From Pseudofabraea citricarpa (taxonomy: Eukaryota; Ascomycota; Leotiomycetes; Helotiales; Dermateaceae): 64,000 nucleotides of DNA. The notes beneath the pieces were generated by a model. It saw only the letters and a program-made list of their open reading frames with translations, was not told the origin of the DNA and searched no databases. The translations under genes were made by a program, and so were the position numbers. Shown in pieces: positions 8,069 through 49,623 of this stretch. Every line of letters begins with the position of its first letter. The stretch's first letter is position 1. The stretch lies in NCBI GenBank assembly GCA_029641185.1, contig JAPWGK010000013.1, positions 930,001 to 994,000 of the forward strand. The letters run 5' to 3'.

Positions 8069-8675
8069 GAAGCGCAAGTACCCGATAAGTTAGGGATCAC
8101 GGGCCATTCAAGGGCTGCAAAGGAGACTCATTGTAGAATTACTTTGGACTAGATTCTATAGAGGTTAAAGTAGCGAGAGCCAATTGAACACCTTTTTCTA
8201 CATCTATTACCATCACAACTCCAAGGGCTGGAAACTACTTTTGGGTAGGACCAGGGCCTTGAATTGACGGAGTAAAACGGAACAAATGGAACATCAGCTG
8301 AGCGGGTAAGTACTATGACAACGCAGTACTAGTATCGTAAGACCTAAAAGACACCGAATAAAGATCATCTGGATCAGAATTCCTTGTTTCGGAAAGCTAG
8401 TCTGCTTTGGTTGATTTGACTTTATCAGGCACCATTAATACTCTGATATAGGTAGAGCCGGTGACAGGCTTGGTGAGTTGTCTTCCTCGGCTATTCTTCG
8501 AAATATGGGCACCTGAGTTAGGTACCTATACTTACCTAGGTAGGTATCTTATCACTTGGCAATTTATAGGTCACGAGTCAAAGGAAGAACCGGATGCAAG
8601 TCACAATTAATGAAGTCCAATATATTCAAGCATAGTATAAACTGATGTATTAGCACTATAAACGCTTTAATTCAT
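8069..8675. other. Intergenic region before minisatellite
   Basis: This is the 3' flank of the GPI-type gene. It contains TACCTA/TAGGTA short repeats around 8520-8548. I see no gene. Confidence 0.6.
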
Positions 8676-8964
8676 AGTAAATGGACTGGTTCCATTATAC
8701 GATTCATAGTAAAGCGGACTGGCACCGCAACTAGTAAATGGACTGGTTCCATTATACGATTCATAGTAAAGCGGACTGGCACCGCAACTAGTAAATGGAC
8801 TGGTTCCATTATACGATTCATAATAAAGCGGACTGGCACCGCAACTAGTAAAATGAACTGGTTCCATTCAACTTTTGATTCAAGGTATAGCGGACTGGCA
8901 CCGCAACTAGTAAAATGAACTGGTTCCATTCAACTTTTGATTCAAGGTATAGCGGACTGGCACC
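8676..8964. repeat. Minisatellite: three 57-bp and two ~62-bp units
   Basis: Three head-to-tail 57-bp units start at 8676, 8733 and 8790 and are almost identical. Two related units of 62 and ~56 bp start at 8847 and 8909. Each unit carries two copies of a GGNNCCAGTCC core on the minus strand (GGAACCAGTCCATTTAC and GGTGCCAGTCCGCTTTAC). The array begins 132 bp past the stop codon of the RGG/zinc-knuckle gene, so it probably lies in its 3' UTR or terminator. A related array lies at 11066-11333. Confidence 0.9.
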
Positions 8965-9096: not shown

Positions 9097-10646
9097 TTAC
9101 TGCGAGATTGAATCTCCTCCGTCTTCTGCTGAGCGCGCACGCAACATCTGCTGAAGCAGAAAATTTGACGCATTATTTTGGCGAATCTGCTCCTCTATTT
9201 GAGCCGACGTCATCATACCCTCCAAATATGAGGGAACTCCAGGAGGGGCCACGGCAGGAGAATTATTAGCAGCCTGATATTGAGTGCTGGCTTTGGACGT
9301 TATCTGGTCGGTGATACCTTCAACAATCTGCTCCTGCTCGGTATTGGCAGAATCTGCGGACAAACCAAGAGCCGCAAGAACTTTTGGTGTGAACTGTGCT
9401 GCATTAGGATGTCTGAATAGACCTAGTTCAGGGGGGTTATTGCGCTCCCAATATGCATCACTGATGAGACCCTTTCTGGTATTGGTTGACGGATCGATGT
9501 TTTTCTTTTCTAAGCCGTAGTTGTACTTCTTAAGACCTTCGTCCTCCAAATTCTGCTTCCATGAAAAGCCCGGGCTCCAACTGCGCACTCTTGACAAATC
9601 CAAATTTGGAATTTGTCTGTAGTCGACCGGAAGGCAAGCTGCAGGTCTATTATGTCTTCTCTTAATTGCATAAGACATTCGATCCAGAATAGCCCGAGAT
9701 GAAAGACCTGGATCTGTGATTCTAGGGCACTGAGACAGTTCATGGTCTTTGGAGTGACACGAAGGGCATCCTATAAGAAAGCCTTCGACGCTAATGGTGC
9801 TGAGGCACTCTCCAAGTTGATGATCATCGCGAAGGCAGCCAGCGCAGCCAGCCTCTCCGACATGCCGATGAGTCTGCTGTCTCCTCTCCTTCTTTTGTCT
9901 TTTGACTCGGAATCTAGCGGACTCTGTGTTGACCTCAATCCCTAGAGCTTGCTCTTGCTCTTGCTCGGGGAGCTGAGTACTGATGGACTGTGTGTTGTTA
10001 GGATAAGTGCTGCCTTGATAACCGCCTCGATATCCTGCTTGGTATCCTCCTCGGTATCCACCACGACCACGACCGCTATAGTCATAGGATGGCTGAAATG
10101 GCTGAAATGGCTGGAATGGCTGAGCTGGCTGGGATGCAGGCTGACTAGAATTGTATGTCAGCATCTGATACACATAGTATGGAATTATCATTCTTACCCC
10201 AATCCTTGATTTTGCTTTGACATGATATTAAGCTGAGCGAGGAAGACATTTTCTGTCAATCTGAGACGTTCCATTCTCTCCTTTGCTGTTTGTGACTGCC
10301 ACTGAGCGTTCATCTCCCCCATTTCATAGCATTGTGCATAAGGGGTCTGTGGCCGGTTTGGAACTGCGAACTGACTATTGCCACCGTGGTTTCCTTGCTG
10401 GTAGCCTGAGAAACCTCCGCGCTGGCTTCCACGGAATCCACCACGTTGTCCACGGTAGCCTCGTCCACGGTAGCCTCCGCCTGGCTGATACTGCTGTTGT
10501 TGTTGCTGATGCTGAGCATGCAACTCTTGATTTCGTTGATGATTAGAAACGATCAACTGGCGATCACCTTGATCTTGCGAAGGCTGCTGATGATTGGGTT
10601 CGCCCCTATTGCTGTTGCCCCAAGGGCCTTGATTCTCCTGAGACAT
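9097..10646 (-). CDS. RGG-box protein with two CCHC zinc knuckles, putative RNA-binding
   Basis: Two exons (10646-10198 and 10144-9097, 53-bp intron) encode 498 residues starting MSQENQ. The N-terminal third is rich in Gln, Asn and Gly with a polyglutamine run and many RGG/RGY repeats (about residues 60-90). After the splice come three PFQ repeats and a second Arg/Gly/Tyr cluster (~170-195). Two zinc knuckles of the exact form C-x2-C-x4-H-x4-C follow: CAGCLRDDHQLGEC and CPSCHSKDHELSQC. The C-terminal ~230 residues have no recognised domain. RGG boxes and CCHC knuckles both bind single-stranded nucleic acid, so an RNA-binding role is inferred. The knuckle pair recalls retroelement Gag proteins, but no protease, reverse transcriptase or long terminal repeat is present. 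Related minisatellites lie on both sides. Confidence 0.78.
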
Positions 10647-11065
10647 GTTGTATAATTGCTTGTCAGGCAAATGTATAGGTCAAGAATGTGTGCAAGGAGA
10701 GAAGAAAGAGTTGTGCGCGCGAAATGACCTTTATCAACAAGTTGCTCGCGTATTCCGGTCACGTGTATTTAGCGACGAGCGACACTCCTTATTCCACAGC
10801 CACACATCAAGACCGTCCGCTGCTCCTGTATCATAATTTGTTGTAAGGTTTATCACTTGATGCACTGCCGATTTCTAATAACCTATTTCACCTGCGAGCA
10901 CAAAACAATATTTGAAGTGGTTACGAGTCAAAAGAGGCAATTGTGCATTCACGACATGACATTTATTTCCGAGTAAACTAGTAATTGTGAATCTAAGAAA
11001 GAATTATGCCAAGACCGTAGGTAGGATTTGGTAAGTAGATTGGTTCTAGTTGAAATATATACTAC
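10647..11065. other. Promoter region of the RGG/zinc-knuckle gene
   Basis: This 5' flank lies between the RGG-protein start and the second minisatellite. I see no open frame of note and no clear TATA box. Confidence 0.5.
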
Positions 11066-11333
11066 AGAGTGTAGATTGGTTCCAACTCTCGAATAAGTAG
11101 TATTATAGCGTAGAGTGAAGTGGTTCCAACTCTCGAATATGTAGCATTATAGCGCAGAGTGGAGTGGTCCCAACTCTCGAATATAGCGTAGAGTGAAGTG
11201 GTCCCAACTCTCGAATATGTAGCATTATAGCGCAGAGTGGAGTGGTCCCAACTCTCGAATATAGCGTAGAGTGAAGTGGTCCCAACTCTCGAATATGTAG
11301 TATTATAGCGCAGAGTGGAGTGGTCCCAACTCA
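11066..11333. repeat. Minisatellite with alternating 34- and 44-bp units
   Basis: Six complete copies of ACTCTCGAATA are spaced alternately so that a 34-bp and a 44-bp unit form a 78-bp composite; a seventh copy is degraded at the right end. On the minus strand the units read GGGACCACTCCACTCTGC or GGGACCACTTCACTCTAC, resembling the core of the 8676-8964 array. It begins about 90 bp past the stop of the next gene (11424), and its other end is ~420 bp upstream of the RGG gene start. Confidence 0.9.
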
Positions 11334-11423
11334 AATATATGCAGCATTGTACCGCATAGTGAAAAACTAAAACCAATCAATAATAAAGTATTGAGAGTCA
11401 CTTGACCTCAGGTATGAGTAGCT

Positions 11424-12821
11424 CTATTTATCACCCAACCCAGCTAACCAAGCATCAATTTCCTCGTCAACTTCGAGAAGCTCTTGGCAATGAGCTAGTC
11501 TCTTTCTGAGCTTTTGCTCTTGCTCCTGTAATATTTGTGTCTCCTGCCTTAAGATTCTATTACGTTCAGAAAGTTTCTCGGACAATGCCTTACTCTTATC
11601 TGCCACTCTCTTTAAAGTTTGCTCCAGATCTTCAATTTCTTTGGCTGGCATGAGCTCTCCGTTCAACACTTTCCCCATGATCTCGAATTGCTCGAAGCGC
11701 TCGTTCGTAACCTTTATTGACTCTTCGAGGTTCGCCATGGCAGTATCTTTTATTACGAAGTTTTGCTTTTTCTCCGAGTAATATTCGCGCTCGCTCTTGA
11801 AATAGTTAGTCCCTGGAGGGTGTGAGTTCATTCCACCATGTTCAATCATTGTACTGCCGAGAAAGGTAATAAGAATCTCTGCGAGATGAAAATGACTGTT
11901 CTTCCAGGTCTTCACAATTGGAATGCAGATAGTCTCGGTTCGTAACTTCATAGAAGAGAGACAGCTGATTATCAATCCCCATATCTTCTGAGAATTACTC
12001 ATACCACCTCTAGGGTCATAGGTGGTCGCACGCGTGCTCATCTTGATTGAACAGCCAACCTGACACATTGCTTGATGTTGCCTCAGTTCATTTCGAGGAT
12101 CCAGGTCCAATCGAATTCTCTGATCCATCATGTTGCAAATTGTCTCTATTGAGGATTCTGCAACATCGTTGTTGACGAACTCGCGATTGCCAGCGTTTAC
12201 TGAGGTTCGTATCTCGTCGGCTCTGGCTTGTGACTTAAGTGCTAGCTCAATCTGAAAAGCAATTTCGGCATCTTCGATCTGTTCTTCGGACGAGATAGGG
12301 CTTATGACATGACCTCGTCCTCTAGTGTACCTATCTTACATCAGTATCTAATGTCCAATAGGCAGACAGGAAACATACCGTCTTAGCATAGACTGCAACG
12401 TCTTCCATTCAGTAGATTTGAGGCCTAATCCATCCTTGTCATCGAGGACCCAGGTATTCAGGTAAGTGCCCGCACAACCATCCATTGGATGAAAATGCTC
12501 TCGAAACTCAGGCTTCCGCTTGTACTGGTACCCAATTGTGCCATCTATGACAGCTCTGATGACGTCCTTGTGCATAGCACGCAGAAGTTCTGCCATTTCG
12601 CGATCTTCGATTGCGTCAGTTCGGATCTTGTCCAGGTATGACAAGTCTTTGTTCTTGTTCGACGCTTCATACTCGTCATTGGCTAGATCGTATATCTCGT
12701 CCATGAGGTCATCGATGATTGTTGCTGGCGAGTCGAGGACGCGTAGTAATCTTTGCTGGCGCTTGGTGACAAAAGGCCGCTTTGCTGTAGGCTCAACGCG
12801 CCTGACTGTTGTTTCTGACAT
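11424..12821 (-). CDS. Unknown protein with C-terminal coiled coil
   Basis: Exons 12821-12379 and 12330-11424 join across a 48-bp intron (donor GTATGT) to give 449 residues. The N-terminal ~150 residues are charged and helical, with a His/Asp-containing segment near residue 110. Residues ~330-430 are strongly helical with Leu, Glu and Lys in heptads, predicting a coiled coil. There is no signal peptide, membrane segment or catalytic motif. I do not recognise the family. It lies head-to-tail with the RGG/zinc-knuckle gene, and both have a related tandem repeat just downstream, suggesting shared local history. Codon use and intron structure look normal for the window, so I regard it as a real gene. 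Confidence 0.72.
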
Positions 12822-13440
12822 ATTGAAATGTCTATTGCTTCGTAGATTTGATTAAAAAGATCTACGGGTGGTTGAGTGCGCGGGAAGATGAAGTTAGGGT
12901 ATGGTTGGTTGAAGTGGTGGTGGCGCAGAGTTCGCAGGATCGTGAGCGTTCAGGTCTTTATACACGGCACGCTCTTAAAAATTCCGCCAAATTTCAGCTC
13001 GCGAATGGCACAAACTACCCCTAAATAAGTACCTGAGTGAAAATATGGTACTTATGTACCTCAAGGTCTCAAGTTTACATATCACTCAGATCGGGGAGTA
13101 AATAATGACTATCAACAGTAGGACAGCATGTGGATAGGCTTCATCTTGACAACCATGTTTCCCACAAGCATACAATCAAAGATTTGAAGCTATATCTCAA
13201 GTGAAATATCCTAATCCAGTGAAAGCAGCAAGAAGTATAAGAGAAAACTTGGGGGTCAACTCTTACATTTACCTCTACGCTAGGCTTTCATCGTGGGCTA
13301 CCTAAGGGTTAAGCCCCGATAGGAGATTATAATACAAAACAAGGTCGTGCAACAAGTCATACTTGAATTGGAGACGATGAGTAGGCAGGGATAACAATAT
13401 AAGAATGACGATAGTAAGAAGCAATTACATAGATTAGCTA

Positions 13441-14464: not shown

Positions 14465-16964
14465 ATGCCAACTGCTGAAGGCGGTCCAAGAACTCTCTAC
14501 GATAAGGTCTTCCAGGCCCACATCGTAGATGAGAGACTCGATGGCACAATTTTACTTTATATTGGTAAGTCTGTTGCTAGTATCTGAAGAAGATGGAGCT
14601 GACTTTTTCCTACAGACAGACATTTGGTTCACGAAGTCACAAGTCCTGTAAGTTTTTTTGTTTTCCGATGAGGGGTCGGAGGATCTAGCACTGACGTAGA
14701 GGAACAGCAAGCTTTTGAGGGATTGAAGAACGCCGGACGCAAAGTTCGAAGACCAGACTGCACCCTTGCCACCACCGATCATGTATGTATAAAAATGGCT
14801 CTGATTCACTGCGAAGCGATGCTAACAACTGCTTTAGAATGTCCCTACCACCTCGCGGAAATCTCTCAAGAATATTGAAACCTTCGTCGAGGAGGAAGAT
14901 TCAAGACTCCAATGTATGACACTCGAAGACAATGTCAAGGACTTTGGTATCACATACTTTGGTCTCGGTGATAAGCGTCAAGGAATTGTCCACATCATCG
15001 GCCCTGAACAGGGCTTCACTCTTCCTGGCACAACTGTTGTTTGTGGCGATAGTCATACCTCTACACATGGAGCCTTTGGAGCGTTGGCTTTTGGTATCGG
15101 AACGAGTGAGGTAGAGCACGTCCTTGCGACACAAACAATCATCACAAAACGCAGCAAGAATATGCGGATCCAAGTGGATGGAGATCTCGCTCCAGGTGTC
15201 AGCTCAAAAGATATTGTTCTCCACGCCATCGGACAAATCGGAACTGCTGGTGGAACTGGTGCTGTCATTGAGTTCTGCGGTTCTGCCATCCGTAGTTTGA
15301 GTATGGAGGCTAGAATGTCGATTTGTAACATGTCGATTGAGGGTGGTGCCAGAGCTGGTATGGTTGCTCCAGACGAGATTACCTTCGCCTATCTCAAAGA
15401 TCGTCCACTTGCACCAACATACGACTCAGATGAGTGGAAGAAGGCCGTCAAATACTGGACAAGTCTTCAGTCAGATGAGGGTGCGAAATACGACATTGAT
15501 GTCTTTATAGATGCAAAGGATATCTCACCAACTGTTACGTGGGGAACAAGTCCAGAAGATGTCGTCCCAATCACTGCCAATGTTCCTGACCCCGAGACAT
15601 TTGACACCGAGGAGAAGAAAGCTTCTGGACGAAGAATGCTTGAGTACATGGGTCTCACTGCCAACACACCAATGGAGGATGTCGTCCTTGATAAGATCTT
15701 CATCGGATCTTGCACAAATGCGCGGATTGAGGATTTAAGAGCTGCTGCGAGTATCGTCAAGGGCCGAAAGGTCGCGCCGAACATCAAGCGAGCTCTGATC
15801 GTCCCAGGTTCTGGTCTCGTTAAGGACCGAGCAGAAGCTGAAGGTCTTGACAAGATCTTCATTGATGCAGGATTCGAATTCAGAGAGGCCGGTTGCAGTA
15901 TGTGTCTTGGTATGAACCCTGACATTTTGTCACCGAAAGAGCGATGTGCCAGTACCAGCAATCGTAATTTCGAGGGAAGACAGGGAGCTGGTGGACGCAC
16001 TCACTTGATGTCGCCAGCCATGGCTGCAGCTTGTGCTATCGTCGGAAAGCTCACTGATGTACGGAAACTCACCGCTAATAATGGAACTCCACGAAGAGCA
16101 ACACCAGAACCTGTGGAGATCGCTCCAGGAAAGGCATACGTTGACGAGAGAGTTCAGACCGACGATGACGAGCGTGAAGCTATTGGTGACCAACCAGAAG
16201 ATGCTGGCCCAAACACAAACACTATCGCACCGACATCTTCTGCTGGTCTTCCAAAATTCACAGTTCTCAAGGGCATTGCCGCACCCATGGAGCGAGCAAA
16301 TGCTGACACCGACGCGATTATTCCCAAACAATTTCTAAAGACAATTAAGCGAACCGGTCTCGGCACGGCTCTCTTCAACGCTTGGAGATATAACGATGAC
16401 GGTTCCGAGAAGCCAGAGTTTGTTCTCAACGAAGAGAAATATCGGAAATCCAAGATTCTTGTTGTTACTGGCCCTAACTTTGGCTGTGGAAGTTCTCGAG
16501 AGCACGCCCCATGGGCTCTCCTTGATTTCGGTATCAAGTGTGTGATCGCACCATCATATGCCGACATCTTCTTCAACAACACATTTAAGAACGGCATGTT
16601 GCCAATCGCAATCACCTCAAAGACAGATCTCGAGGCCATTGCAGACCGCGCACGTGCTGGTGAGGAAGTTGAGATTGACTTGCCAAACCAGACCATCAAC
16701 GATGCTTCAGGAAAGGAGATCTGCAAATTCGAGGTCGAGGAGTTCCGAAAGCATTGCTTGATCAACGGCTTGGACGATATTGGATTGACGATGCAGATGG
16801 AAGATAAGATCTTGTCTTTTGAGAAGAAGATGTCAAGAGAGACACCATGGTTAGATGGTAGTGGATACTTGAAGCGAGGCAAGGATGGTCGTCTTGCTGC
16901 AAAAGCCAAGCCAGTGCCGATCACTAATAGAGGGGAGGAGATCAAAGAGCCGCTCGACTGGTAG
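14465..16964 (+). CDS. LEU1: 3-isopropylmalate dehydratase (leucine biosynthesis)
   Basis: Catalyses isomerisation of 2-isopropylmalate to 3-isopropylmalate, the second step of leucine synthesis, using a [4Fe-4S] cluster. Four exons (14465-14564, 14616-14647, 14708-14782, 14838-16964) give 777 residues, close to the ~780 of yeast Leu1. The large-subunit part carries the aconitase-family segment [18 protein letters not shown], and cluster cysteines in IGSCTNAR (~360) and [11 protein letters not shown] (~422 and ~425). After a charged linker (~475-520) comes the fused swivel domain with [20 protein letters not shown]. Fusion of both domains is normal for fungi. The three introns crowd into the first 375 bp, including an exon of only 32 bp. 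A Leu3-type site lies upstream. Confidence 0.97.
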
Positions 16965-34379: not shown

Positions 34380-35072
34380 GATGAAGTTGAAGTCGCACGG
34401 CGACCAGCGGATGCACACTCAAAGCGATATCATAGAGACACAATGAATGATTGCAATTCAAGTCCAATTTGTTCGACACTTTGTCCAGTAACACTGCTGA
34501 AGGCCAGGTCGAATGTGTTGTATCGATGAGAGCGCAGGTAGGCCAGGCAACAGCAGAGATGCTGTCACAGCAGGAATATAAAACGAGTCGAGAATGTTGA
34601 CAGGGACGGCCAGACCAGACAAGATCGAAGATCGGGACTCGATTTAAGAATTCTCCAAGGTGGCCGGGTGGTGTTCAGGTAGGGGAGGTTTTGAAGGGTA
34701 TGGTTGACGGGTAGTAGATCGGAAGGGAGTAAATGGTTGGATATCGGGATGATTGATGGATGATTGATTAATTGATCGATTGTAAAGGAGTGGACGGTCT
34801 ACGATAGACCAAAGAGAGCGCGGGTGGTGTGCGGTGTGCGTGGGTGAGAGGGCAGCAGTCTGGGAGTTGCGGGACGACGAGCGACGACGAGGTGGAATAT
34901 GTTTCTTCAAGAGTTGTTGTAGTATGGGGATGGGAGGAGAGAGTATGATTTGCTAGGCCCAGTTGGAAATTGAGACTATGCCTGTCGCGGCCTTAGTTGC
35001 GGTGGGACCAAGCCTATTTCAGAAGCAGATGCAGGGGCCAGCGAGCACGAGTACAGCACAGCGAGGGAAGTT

Positions 35073-35146
35073 GTCAGGGCAAGTTGTCAGGGCAGGTCAG
35101 GGCCGGTCAGGGCTGTCAGGGCTGTTGTCAGGGCAGTGGTCAGGGC
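35073..35146 (+). repeat. GTCAGGGC short repeat, seven copies
   Basis: Seven exact copies of GTCAGGGC are separated by 1-5 bp. It reads as an unstable minisatellite in noncoding sequence. Confidence 0.8.
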
Positions 35147-35699
35147 AGTGTGCCTATAATTGTACCTATAATGGTCCCTATACGCCGGGCTTGTTTACCA
35201 GAGTGGGCGACTGGGAGACGGACACCACACTACACTACCATACACACCACACCACACACCACACTTCACACTGCCTAACACTACAACCAACACACACACC
35301 CACCCGCCTACCCTACAGGCGACAGGCTACAGGCTACAGGCCACAAACTACAGCCTACAGCCTACTGGCAGTCTGGCACCCACTTACCACTGGTAACCGG
35401 CATCACCCCCTCCACCTCCCTCTCCACCCAAGTACGCCAAAGATGACCACCTCCTCCTAGCAATCCGTGCTTGTGCCGTACCTGGAATCCTGGCACCTGG
35501 CACTGGCTTTGGCGCTGGCACTGGCTCTGGTTGTTGGCGTCGCCCTGGATCCAGGTACAAAGTTACTTTACTTGACTGTACAGTACAGGCGATTCAGGTA
35601 CTCACTACTCTCAAGGCAGACGAGAGAGACCGTTTTATCAAGCAAACTCAGTGTTTCCATTGACTAAGATTAGACCCAGAGTCGCATCGCAACCAGATT

Positions 35700-45897: not shown

Positions 45898-47256
45898 CTA
45901 GTCTTCCTTGGCAGAAGAGACCTCTTTCTTGGCAGAAGAGACCTTTTTCTTGACAGAAGGGATTCTGAATGGGTGCTGTGGGAGCGCAATGAGCTGCGGA
46001 ATTGGTCCAGGGACATGCAAAGTTGGGCGCTTGAGTCCAGATGGTAGTGCTGGTTCAAGTTCTTCGGCCTCGTTGTTTCCAGGAAAGGTGGCAGAAGAGA
46101 CCTCTTCCTTGGCAGAAGAGACCTCTTTCTTGGCAGAAGAGATTCTGAATGGGCGCTGTGGGAGCGCAATGAGCTGCGGAATTGGTCTAGGGACATGCAA
46201 AGTTGGGCGCTTGAGTCCAGATGGTAGTGCTGGTTCAAGTTCTTCGGCCTCGTTGTTTCCAGGAAAGGTGGCAGAAGAGACCTCGTCCTTGACAGAAGAG
46301 ACCTCGTCCTTGACAGAAGAGACCTCGTCCTTGACAGAAGAGATCAAGCGCATGCGACCAGAGACGGACGGGATTGGTGCTGGGACATACCAAGTTGGGC
46401 GCTTGAGTCCAGATGGTAGTGCTGGTTCAAGTTCTTCAGCCTCGTCGTTTCCAGGAACGGTGGCAGTATTGCTCTCTCCAGTGTCATTGCCAGCATCGCT
46501 GCTCTTGGACTCGCTATCTTTGATTGCTTTTGCAGCCGCACTCTTGAGGAAAGCTTGAGTAGGAACTCTCTCCCTATGATCTTGAGGAAGGACGAGGAAG
46601 TCATCGTCACTATCGGAACTGCTATCTTCAACCTTCCGACTTCCACCGGCAGTTACAGGTTTGGGATATCTGAGGGAGTTGTTGAGTGCAGCCACAGCAG
46701 CGGCAGTGGATGACGAAGCAGCAGTGCTCATAGCCGGAGCAATACTTGGAGCAACAAGAGCAAGACCAACACCATCCTCGGGGCCAACGGCATCATTACC
46801 CTCCGAAAACGGCAAGGGAAGCTTGCGAGAAGAGCAGGTAGTGGAAGAGCCCAAACCAGCGAAGAGCACATTGCGAAGCCAAGCGTAATAGTTTGGATGA
46901 CTTCTCAAAGTCTTCCTATCAAGGGGTGAGTCCCTAAGTGCCGCATTGCCACCATCCAATCTCATTCCCTGGATCGTGAGAACAAGTCCGTCTGGTCCCA
47001 AGAAAGGTTGGCCTTCATTCCATCTTGCCTCGCGGATCTTCATACCGCGTTTAACGACGTTCACGAACATCTCCACGGATCGATCGTTGACTGCTCCAAT
47101 TGCTGCGCCCTGGAAGAGTGCACCAACCCAGAGGTCAGAAAGGCGATTTTCCTTGCGGTTCACAAGAAGAACTAGATCCTTGATGTGGATCGATCCCAGT
47201 GGTGCGTCGAAGAGTGGCTGGGCCTTCAGGACAGCCTTGGTGAAGGTGCGTGGCAT
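45898..47256 (-). CDS. Unknown protein with repeated C-terminal modules
   Basis: The frame from the ATG at 47256-47254 codes for 452 residues starting MPRTFTK. Residues 1-130 look globular (SIHIKDLVLLVNRKENRL, FVNVVKRGMKIREARW) and belong to no family I recognise. Residues ~130-260 are Ser/Ala-rich with an acidic SSSDSDDDF run. Residues ~265-452 form three modules of 60-64 residues. Each starts PGN(D/N)EAEELEPALPSGLK, continues with a Pro-rich stretch, and ends in two or three heptapeptides of the type SSVKDEV or SSAKKEV. There is no signal peptide or membrane segment. The 5' leader appears to contain seven related introns, and a 50-bp repeat array lies upstream. Function is unknown; the N-terminal domain looks maintained while the tail expands. 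Confidence 0.75.
   Translation of the reverse strand: MPRTFTKAVLKAQPLFDAPLGSIHIKDLVLLVNRKENRLSDLWVGALFQGAAIGAVNDRSVEMFVNVVKRGMKIREARWNEGQPFLGPDGLVLTIQGMRLDGGNAALRDSPLDRKTLRSHPNYYAWLRNVLFAGLGSSTTCSSRKLPLPFSEGNDAVGPEDGVGLALVAPSIAPAMSTAASSSTAAAVAALNNSLRYPKPVTAGGSRKVEDSSSDSDDDFLVLPQDHRERVPTQAFLKSAAAKAIKDSESKSSDAGNDTGESNTATVPGNDEAEELEPALPSGLKRPTWYVPAPIPSVSGRMRLISSVKDEVSSVKDEVSSVKDEVSSATFPGNNEAEELEPALPSGLKRPTLHVPRPIPQLIALPQRPFRISSAKKEVSSAKEEVSSATFPGNNEAEELEPALPSGLKRPTLHVPGPIPQLIALPQHPFRIPSVKKKVSSAKKEVSSAKED
45901..46464 (-). repeat. Coding tandem repeat: three modules with nested 21-bp units
   Basis: Three near-identical modules of ~180-192 bp encode residues 265-328, 329-388 and 389-452. Within the first, a 21-bp unit (SSVKDEV) is repeated three times almost exactly at the DNA level. 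High DNA identity between modules indicates recent duplication or ongoing homogenisation. Confidence 0.9.
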
Positions 47257-47289
47257 CTTTGCTATTGTTGATTTGGTGGGACTGGAGGG

Positions 47290-48305
47290 CTATAGAGGGT
47301 AAGTCGTTAGTGACATATACAAGAAGGTGAAATGATGAAGCTTACATGGGTCTTTCTTGAACAGGAGAAGAAGAAGTAGACGACTTCCAAGTCTGCGTTC
47401 AAATGTCGATTTTCTGCGTTGAAGTTACGACTTTCTGCGTGGGAGTGACGATTCTCTGCGTTGAAGTAACGATTCAAGACTACAACGTCGTCAGTGGCAG
47501 GTACAAGAAGGTGAAGAGATATAACTTACATGTATACTTCTTGAGTATGAGAAGAAACTCCAAGTCTGCGTTCAAGTAACGATTCTCTGCGTTGAACGGT
47601 TCTCTGCGTTAAAGTACCGATTTGAGACTACAAAGTCGTTAGCAGAACGCACAAGGCTATGCCATACAACAAGGTGAAATGATCCGACCTACCTGAACGC
47701 TGCTTGGCTTGAACGAGAGAAGAAACTCCAAGGCCACGTTCAAGTAACGATTCTCTGCGTTGAGCAATTCTCTGCGTTGAACAATTCTCTGCGTTGAACA
47801 ATTCTCTGCGTTGAACGGTTCTCTGCGTTCAAGTAACGATTCAAGACTACAAAGTCGTTAGAAGAACGCACAAGAGTAGGATATACAAGGTGAAAAGACT
47901 GAGCCTACCTCAACGTTACTTGAAGAAAGAGAAGAGACCTCTCAAGTCCGCGTTGTCGAAGGAACGCTTTGAGACTACAAAGTCGTCAGCAGAACGCACA
48001 GGGCTATAATACCATACAACGAGGTGAAAAGATTGGGCATACCTCAACGTTGCTTGAACGAGAACAGAAGGAGAAGAGACCTTTCAAGTCCGCGTTGTCG
48101 AAGGAACGCTTTGAGACTGCAAAGTCGTCAGCAGAACGCACAATGCTACGCTATACAACAAGGGGGAAAGACTGAACATACCTTAAGGTTGCTTGAACGA
48201 GAGCAGAAGTAGAAGAGACCTTTCAAGCCCACGTTGTTGAAGGAGCGGTTTGAGACTCCAAAGTCGTTAGCAGAACACACAACGAGGCTGCACCTAAAGA
48301 CTTAC
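47290..48305 (-). repeat. Tandem array of seven duplicated exon-intron units in a 5' leader
   Basis: Read on the minus strand, seven introns are visible: 48305-48256, 48181-48117, 48042-47975, 47908-47847, 47692-47628, 47529-47480 and 47345-47290 (50, 65, 68, 62, 65, 50 and 56 bp). Donors are GTAAG, GTATG or GTAGG. All share a CTRACGAC branch-like motif close to the 3' end, and the first six end in TTGnAG. Introns 2-5 share TGTGCGTTCT (intron 1 has TGTGTGTTCT), and five share TTTCACCTT-like sequence. The exons between them also match; the first two are both 74 bp and differ at about nine positions. The array lies between a TATA-like box (48467) and the ATG (47256), so it is probably the 5' UTR. 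Confidence 0.8.
47530..47846 (-). repeat. Nested AACGCAGAGAATCGTT minisatellite within leader exons
   Basis: Units of ~17-18 bp (AACGCAGAGAATTGTTC and variants) are repeated five or six times in the 47846-47693 exon and two or three times in the 47627-47530 exon. Further copies continue in 47479-47346. It is a smaller repeat expanding inside the larger exon-intron repeat. Confidence 0.85.
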
Positions 48306-48459
48306 CTGCTCTTTGTATGGGACTTTCTGGTTTCTTCTTGTACACCGTCGTCCTCCGCGGTGAACAGGAATCAAGTTGTGTAGAGGTAGAGGTCTTGCTT
48401 GATGGGTAAGAGGAAGGAAGGGTTGAAGGTGGAAGAGTTCGTATGGAAAATTTCCCCTA

Positions 48460-48467
48460 TACTTATA
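48460..48467 (-). promoter_or_regulatory. TATA-like box for the repeat-leader gene
   Basis: TATAAGTA on the minus strand lies about 160 bp upstream of the first predicted leader donor and just downstream of the 50-bp repeat array. It suggests transcription starts near 48430. Confidence 0.45.
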
Positions 48468-48504
48468 GACCAACTAGCTCGCTTAATTCAATACGTGATA
48501 GTAT

Positions 48505-48754
48505 AGAATAAGTCAAGCGAGCAAACGACAAGCATGACTTCCTCGGAACAGCATGGAATAAGTCAAGCGAGCAAACGAGAAGCCTGACTTCCTCGGGACA
48601 GCATAGAATAAGTCAAGCAAGCAAACTACAATCCGGACTTGCTCGGAACAGTGTAGAATAAGTTAGGCGAGTAAACGACAAGCCTGACTTCCTCGGGATA
48701 GCATAGAATAAGTTACACGAGCAAACTACAAGCCTGACTTCCTCAGAACATAGC
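48505..48754. repeat. Five 50-bp promoter-proximal repeats
   Basis: Five head-to-tail units start at 48505, 48555, 48605, 48655 and 48705. Each begins (A/G)GAATAAGT and carries an AAGTCA...TGACTT inverted repeat, best kept in the first two copies. The array lies directly upstream of the TATA-like box and could act as a binding-site array. Confidence 0.9.
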
Positions 48755-49623
48755 GGAACTACCTCATTCAGTAGCCTAGCCACTTCTTTGATTGCCCGCC
48801 ATTATCTTGAACGCAAAATGATAGTGAAACGCAGAACATAGAAAGCATTGAAAAGGAATCAGACTTTGAAGTGAGTTGATTATGACCATGATTTCTCCAA
48901 GCCCAGCAGCTTTCCTGCAGCATCTTTGTACAGTCCAGCTATATGCAATTCCGAGAGGGTATATTATCATGTCTGCGTATGCAAAGGCTCCCAAAGTATT
49001 AACCGCTTCATATTGCGGAAAATGGCCGTTCTGTCAGGCTTGGGCAGATCCATCATCCACGGTCTGAGTGCTTGTCGGGCCCAATTGACTCCTCACCACT
49101 AGGTAATAGTTTTCAACATAATCTAGCAACACAATCTACGTAATGTCGTCGTATAGTTGTCTTTCAAAGAAACACTCCTTTGGATCACATCATCTTCACA
49201 GCTCGTCCGCATTTATACCAGTAGCAGCCATTGTGGTTACGTTCAATATAAGCCTTTCATGGAGATTTCTACAGTAACAGTAGGTTTCACTGCTCAGTTA
49301 TCAGAGAAGCAAGACGTCGTCAGAAGAAATAAGCGATGGCGGAGAATCCTTTCTTCCGCGCCGTACCTTCCTACTGAGGTACTTGCCTAGATGCTGAGAC
49401 GTGATTTGGGTACTTAGTTAGCTAGGTACCTATCTAGCAGTTAGTATCAAGTAGCCTCGGCCCTGCCCGTTTAGTTCAGCCTTCTCTACCTGACTCATAA
49501 ATTCTGCCTTGTACTAGCTCTTCGTCCTTCACCGACCAACAACCTCTACACGCCCACAAACCGTACACATCGATATCTGCATCCTCACGCACTGCACAAA
49601 GAGCCTTGACAGCTACCAAGACC
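48755..49623. other. Divergent promoter region
   Basis: This lies between the repeat-leader gene's promoter array and the start of the next plus-strand gene. TAGGTACCTA-type motifs occur near 49376-49440. I see no gene. Confidence 0.55.

Follow-up and report, generated by a model that had tools for sequence, protein, structure and literature searches.

Seven similar introns in one leader are an unusual arrangement, and the locus described here, located in a 64,000-nucleotide window (the whole stretch of DNA that was analysed), raises the question of how such a series arose and why each member still looks spliceable. Judging from the sequence, the array was probably formed by serial multiplication of a pre-existing leader intron together with its exon, kept spliceable by selection, in front of an orphan open reading frame (ORF).

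All parts of the locus are read on the minus strand. Upstream lies a TATA-like box (TATAAG, 48462-48467), which presumably functions as its sequence suggests, followed by leader exon 1 (48306-48445), pyrimidine-rich near its 5' side, whose 5' end is assumed to lie about 20 nt below the box at a presumed transcription start. Predicted introns and leader exons then alternate as intron 1 (48256-48305, 50 nt, GTAAGT...CTAAC...TTGGAG with a GAG acceptor), exon 2 (48182-48255, 74 nt), intron 2 (48117-48181, 65 nt), exon 3 (48043-48116, 74 nt), intron 3 (47975-48042, 68 nt), exon 4 (47909-47974, 66 nt, exons 2 and 3 being longer by 8 nt), intron 4 (47847-47908, 62 nt), exon 5 (47693-47846, 154 nt, with an internal 17-bp tandem repeat), intron 5 (47628-47692, 65 nt), exon 6 (47530-47627, 98 nt), intron 6 (47480-47529, 50 nt), exon 7 (47346-47479, 134 nt, with an internal 21-bp tandem repeat) and intron 7 (47290-47345, 56 nt). 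Exon 8 contributes a last leader part (47257-47289) that runs up to the start codon, with A at -3, and is followed by a 452-codon ORF (45898-47256), the C-terminal part of which consists of tandem repeats and for which no homologues were detected outside this genome.

The original prediction had announced seven minus-strand introns of 50-68 bp downstream of a TATA-like box, each with a usable donor, a CTRACGAC motif and an AG acceptor, and all of these elements were recovered, the box at 48467-48462 and the introns, of the form GTANG...CTRACGAC...AG, between 48305 and 47290. The donor is GTAAG in introns 1, 6 and 7, GTATG in introns 2 and 3, and GTAGG in introns 4 and 5, and the branch motif is CTAACGAC or CTGACGAC in all seven. 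The common TTGNAG ending anticipated for the six upstream introns is present in each of them (GAG once, CAG once and TAG four times), intron 7 ending in CTATAG, and the distance from the branch A to the intron end, 17 nt in intron 7, is 11 nt in each of the other six. In the 64-kb window, CTRACGAC occurs 12 times against an expectation of 3.04, with seven of these occurrences within the array. A strict intron pattern (GTANG, CTRAC, NAG) matches exactly the seven introns in the leader, whereas the region resampled 2000 times under a first-order Markov model averaged 0.13 matches and never gave more than 3. The motifs for these tests were picked after the sequence had been seen. The densest 1.1 kb in the rest of the window holds three matches of the strict pattern, none of 20 resampled windows exceeded two per 1.1 kb, and scanning both strands of 16 other loci gave at most two at any of them. 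Since the seven introns are copies, they do not represent seven independent chance events, and the weight falls on the signals kept in every copy.

The proposed introns were also compared with those of conserved genes. Nine introns placed in chaperonin genes of the same genome, four of them by requiring CTRAY and some in gaps that allowed other splice-site pairs, are 47-55 nt long, all with a CTRAY branch and CAG or TAG ends, and with a GTAAG donor in five of nine; one further chaperonin gap (L033) yielded no such intron and may end in AAG. The leader intron signals resemble those of the nine placed introns, and five of the seven leader introns (56-68 nt) exceed all nine in length. GAG is a weak acceptor. 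Because intron 1 ends in GAG and exon 2 contains no CAG or TAG, splicing of intron 1 may be weak or may run to the next acceptor, so that its GAG would be bypassed in favour of the acceptor of intron 2.

Common descent of the copies is evident in introns and exons alike. All seven introns can be aligned, with pairwise identities of 60-86%, the 5' half of intron 1 aligning poorly, and intron 7, which adjoins the coding exon, belongs to the same repeat family (78% identical to intron 6). The six internal exons, which had been described as related, share pairwise identities of 65-95% and follow the same order as the introns, and the exon-intron units as a whole are 64-89% identical. The further claim that exon and intron were copied together in tandem is borne out by the fact that both align and that neighbours are most alike: the further apart two of the six units lie in the array, the less similar they are (Mantel r 0.89), a value reached by 2 of 720 orders, which is the minimum possible in this test because an order and its mirror image score equally. 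For the introns taken separately, the corresponding correlation is lower (Mantel r 0.59; 20 of 5040 orders), and the variant donor types, too, are shared by neighbours (introns 2 and 3; introns 4 and 5). Between neighbouring units, exons differ at 65 of 391 sites and introns at 66 of 289, a contrast that appears slight (p 0.049 summed; two of five pairs individually below 0.02). In 18 comparisons of exons 1 and 8 with the internal exons, the sole p value of 0.03 (uncorrected) belonged to a 12-nt match shared by the ends of exons 1 and 7. The copies seem too diverged for the array to be a duplicate introduced during assembly.

On these grounds, the claim of intron gain by segmental duplication holds in one part and has to be recast in another: serial duplication of exon plus intron is well matched by the similarity gradient, and the birth of introns is not, given that introns homologous to each other along their length point to the multiplication of an intron rather than its creation, a distinction drawn in PMC4974935. 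The array thus appears to have arisen by copying of an existing intron and not by de novo intron creation. The Rogers model, in which an intron is created from a duplicated exonic AGGT segment, was likewise set aside, the introns being homologous to one another as introns.

The history of the locus, including descent from a leader with one intron, the point at which transcription starts, splicing itself and the selective reason for it, is inferred as follows. The region would serve a lineage-specific gene as its 5' untranslated leader, and the ancestral leader would have carried one short intron. A unit of one intron plus one exon, today 124-216 bp in length, would then have been duplicated locally in tandem again and again until seven introns and six non-coding internal exons were present, while repeats of 17-21 bp, observed in exons 5-7, grew inside these exons. 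Each copy would be spliced as an ordinary short fungal intron, and splicing would remove all upstream ATGs, so that no ATG would precede the one at 47256 in the mature mRNA. The unspliced leader, with its upstream ATGs and extra length, would have been selected against, and this would have kept donor, branch and acceptor while the rest of the introns diverged.

The distribution of ATGs fits this proposed history. The spliced leader, 773 nt long if transcription starts near 48445, contains no ATG, the sole absentee among the 64 trinucleotides, and the unspliced leader contains seven, of which five lie inside introns and two span a donor, where the final AT of exon 6 or exon 7 is completed by the donor G. 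Dinucleotide shuffles lend this absence marginal support (258 of 5000 shuffles of the spliced leader were ATG-free, as were 984 of 5000 in a version restricted to one exon of each type). Across both strands of the window, 37 of 126,456 positions begin an ATG-free window of 773 nt, all in one stretch. No ATG-free stretch on either strand of the window is longer than the one of 809 nt at about 34433-35241 on the minus strand, which overlaps a 10-12 bp tandem repeat at 35064-35149. The predicted fold of the spliced leader RNA did not stand out in stability from those of 60 shuffles (z -0.95), and an Rfam search of 47000-48900 gave no match up to E 0.1.

Compatible with the preferred history is the tentative proposal that the number of leader introns acts as a tuning device, for expression or for splicing-dependent translation, and that changes in copy number were themselves selected. 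All 64 combinations of internal exons that skipping could generate remain ATG-free, whereas retention of intron 2, 3, 5, 6 or 7 adds upstream ATGs that open frames of 1-31 codons, all closed before the start codon. Exon skipping should therefore be harmless and retention costly, which under the preferred history would explain the persistence of the signals. It is conceivable, at a similarly low level of confidence, that the leader is modular and splice-gated, such that the number of units would set how strongly protein output depends on splicing; if so, unequal exchange could change that number in one step. Against a tuning role, introns 1 and 4 would add no ATG if retained, and the similarity gradient fits plain drift of a tandem array. 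Excerpts of PMC3744415 describe a cumulative effect of intron number on expression in Cryptococcus neoformans, where intron position matters as well, but also report that the two outermost CAS3 introns acted negatively, so more introns need not raise expression.

Somewhat less probable, and in our view unlikely, is that the region represents a non-coding minisatellite carrying fossil or chance intron-like copies, with transcription starting downstream and no splicing. The locus is indeed repeat-prone, with a 50-bp array of five copies (48503-48750, 83% matches) directly above the TATA-like box of the array gene and an array of about 180 bp by three within the ORF. However, the core signals are intact in all seven copies despite intron divergence of 14-40%: in the intron alignment, the signal columns (GTA.G, CT.AC, AG) are invariant in 10 of 10 cases, compared with 9 of 27 among the remaining columns that have a base in every intron (Fisher p 2.7e-4). 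Predicted introns and exons also differ in composition (T 38% and A 17.5% in introns; T 26% and A 28% in exons, which have 46% GC), and ATGs are confined to introns and donor junctions. Elsewhere in the window, minisatellites with 57-bp and 44/78-bp units (8670-8930 and 11077-11363) lie beside uncharacterised minus-strand ORFs within 9097-12851.

Far less credible is the idea that the internal exons are, or recently were, coding sequence, forming an N-terminal extension translated from a non-ATG start. The last stop in the ORF frame lies 249 nt before the start codon and is followed by the near-cognate codons TTG and ATA, with no ATG, and the 21-bp repeat of exon 7 corresponds to seven codons, both of which would suit such an extension. 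Nevertheless, only one of the six internal exon lengths is a multiple of 3, and the internal exons contain stops in all three frames, features that speak against coding exons; the 17-bp repeat and the 8-nt length change would break the frame, and the leader frames score below zero in coding potential (-0.04, -0.09 and -0.02 per codon). Coding internal exons are thus thought unlikely in view of these scores, lengths and stops and of the ATG-free spliced leader, and the expectation that the array is confined to an untranslated leader finds support in the same features.

The least likely alternative, that mobile introner-like elements inserted repeatedly into one leader, draws on the families of near-identical introns described in fungi (PMC4457414) and can be dismissed, as the intervening exons are duplicated too, whereas insertions into a unique leader would have left them single, and as no further copy was found elsewhere in the 44-Mb assembly of 43 contigs by one DNA search and three patterns (exact or with up to three mismatches). 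Counts from these searches are lower bounds and diverged copies could be missed; the sole match outside the locus, on contig C3 with one mismatch, lacks an acceptor AG. With copies found at this locus alone, the family is not a dispersed introner family.

With regard to the gene that the leader would serve, the first 165 codons of the ORF have a coding score of 0.047 in their own frame and scores below zero in the other five frames; the same score is 0.018-0.149 for the nine long ORFs of the window, on which it was trained. The 452-codon ORF gave no Pfam match up to E 1; of the 7,996 candidates scored from the protein collection, a capped list, none qualified as a homologue at E 0.001, and for residues 1-165 none of 1,218 did so at E 1, in a search that requires shared five-residue words and by which relatives can be missed. 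An AlphaFold2 model of the product, built from two aligned sequences, has a mean pLDDT of 38. The three-copy array of about 180 bp at 45909-46466 contains nested 21-bp repeats and keeps the frame, so that a 20-residue stretch, GN(N/D)EAEELEPALPSGLKRPT, appears three times. Between the last two 180-bp units, all six differing codons are non-synonymous and third positions are all alike. Given that six of six differing codons change the amino acid and that no homologue was detected outside the genome, the status of the ORF as a selected gene appears uncertain. A 218-codon open frame on the plus strand (45902-46558) lies antisense to the repetitive end of the ORF and is probably a by-product of the repeats. 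In the same window, the protein encoded by LEU1 (14838-16964) shares 95% identity with its counterpart in Phlyctema vagabunda, 88% with the one in Coleophoma crateriformis and 86% with that of Mollisia scopiformis, which places the source fungus near Phlyctema (Helotiales); a search of the assembly for 5.8S rRNA gave no match.

Within the genome, contig C34 carries a weak paralogue of the ORF, which matches residues 40-131 of the query at 32% identity (E 3.5e-4). Between the TATA-like box and the ATG of this paralogue, one intron-like sequence, not seven, was located by eye, 50 or 54 nt long depending on the acceptor. Further members of the paralogue's family are incomplete (one, on C7) or AT-rich and interrupted by stops (five, of which two are on C3 and one each on C12, C20 and C22). 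The stretches that hold these five copies (L021, L022, L023 and L025) have a GC content of 15-16% and a (CA+TG)/(AC+GT) ratio of 0.01-0.03, alike over kilobases, values that we take to be a signature of repeat-induced point mutation, of which the AT-rich copies look like an extreme case. The leader is not degraded in this manner, its exons having 46% GC. Over 47257-48445, its TA/AT ratio is 1.36 and its (CA+TG)/(AC+GT) ratio 0.86, compared with 0.72 and 1.27 for the window, which leans toward repeat-induced point mutation at normal GC; the TA/AT value may be explained by a scarcity of AT in this region.

Several known systems can be compared with the array, as far as the excerpts of the cited papers go. 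The closest is CNN00420 of Cryptococcus neoformans (Sharpton et al. 2008, PMC2395259), in which a repeat of about 107 nt containing a full intron and exon ends was expanded, raising intron number, and in which exonic repeats of about 39 nt also occur, repeat number differing between strains. Both are fungal genes in which an intron-containing repeat has multiplied and shorter exonic repeats are present as well. In CNN00420, however, the gained introns are identical or nearly so, recent and polymorphic, whereas the units here are 64-89% identical with core signals kept and, unlike those of CNN00420, lie in an apparent untranslated leader. The excerpted text of PMC4974935 treats Arabidopsis TOUCH3 and internal gene duplication (Knowles and McLysaght; Gao and Lynch) as cases in which pre-existing introns are multiplied, not created. 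TOUCH3 resembles the present locus in that an existing intron was duplicated with flanking exon sequence, but it involves two tandem duplications, in contrast to seven introns in a non-coding leader. In humans, variable internal tandem repeats at exon-intron boundaries likewise alter intron structure, with 8 of 27 intron modifications in untranslated regions (Table 2 of PMC2812944, seen in excerpt); activated cryptic splice sites are invoked there for some cases, while whole introns appear to have been copied here. Introner-like elements also form families of similar introns in one genome but are spread across many genes (PMC4457414, PMC9860276), whereas the present family was found at one locus. 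Introns in 5' untranslated regions are themselves documented in C. neoformans (1,632 of 40,946 introns; excerpt of PMC3990503). The word "tandem" is absent from the excerpted text of a fungal intron survey (PMC8476143), and searches of open-licence PMC papers listed no comparable fungal leader.

Intron multiplication by repeat expansion is therefore already known, and what appears to be new is the occurrence of seven diverged copies in one apparent untranslated leader, by which this process would be extended to a fungal leader. The array would offer a natural series in which a single intron is present in seven diverged versions within the same transcript, apparently unconstrained by protein coding. 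Such a series would allow the positions kept by selection to be read directly and the effect of leader intron number on expression to be tested.
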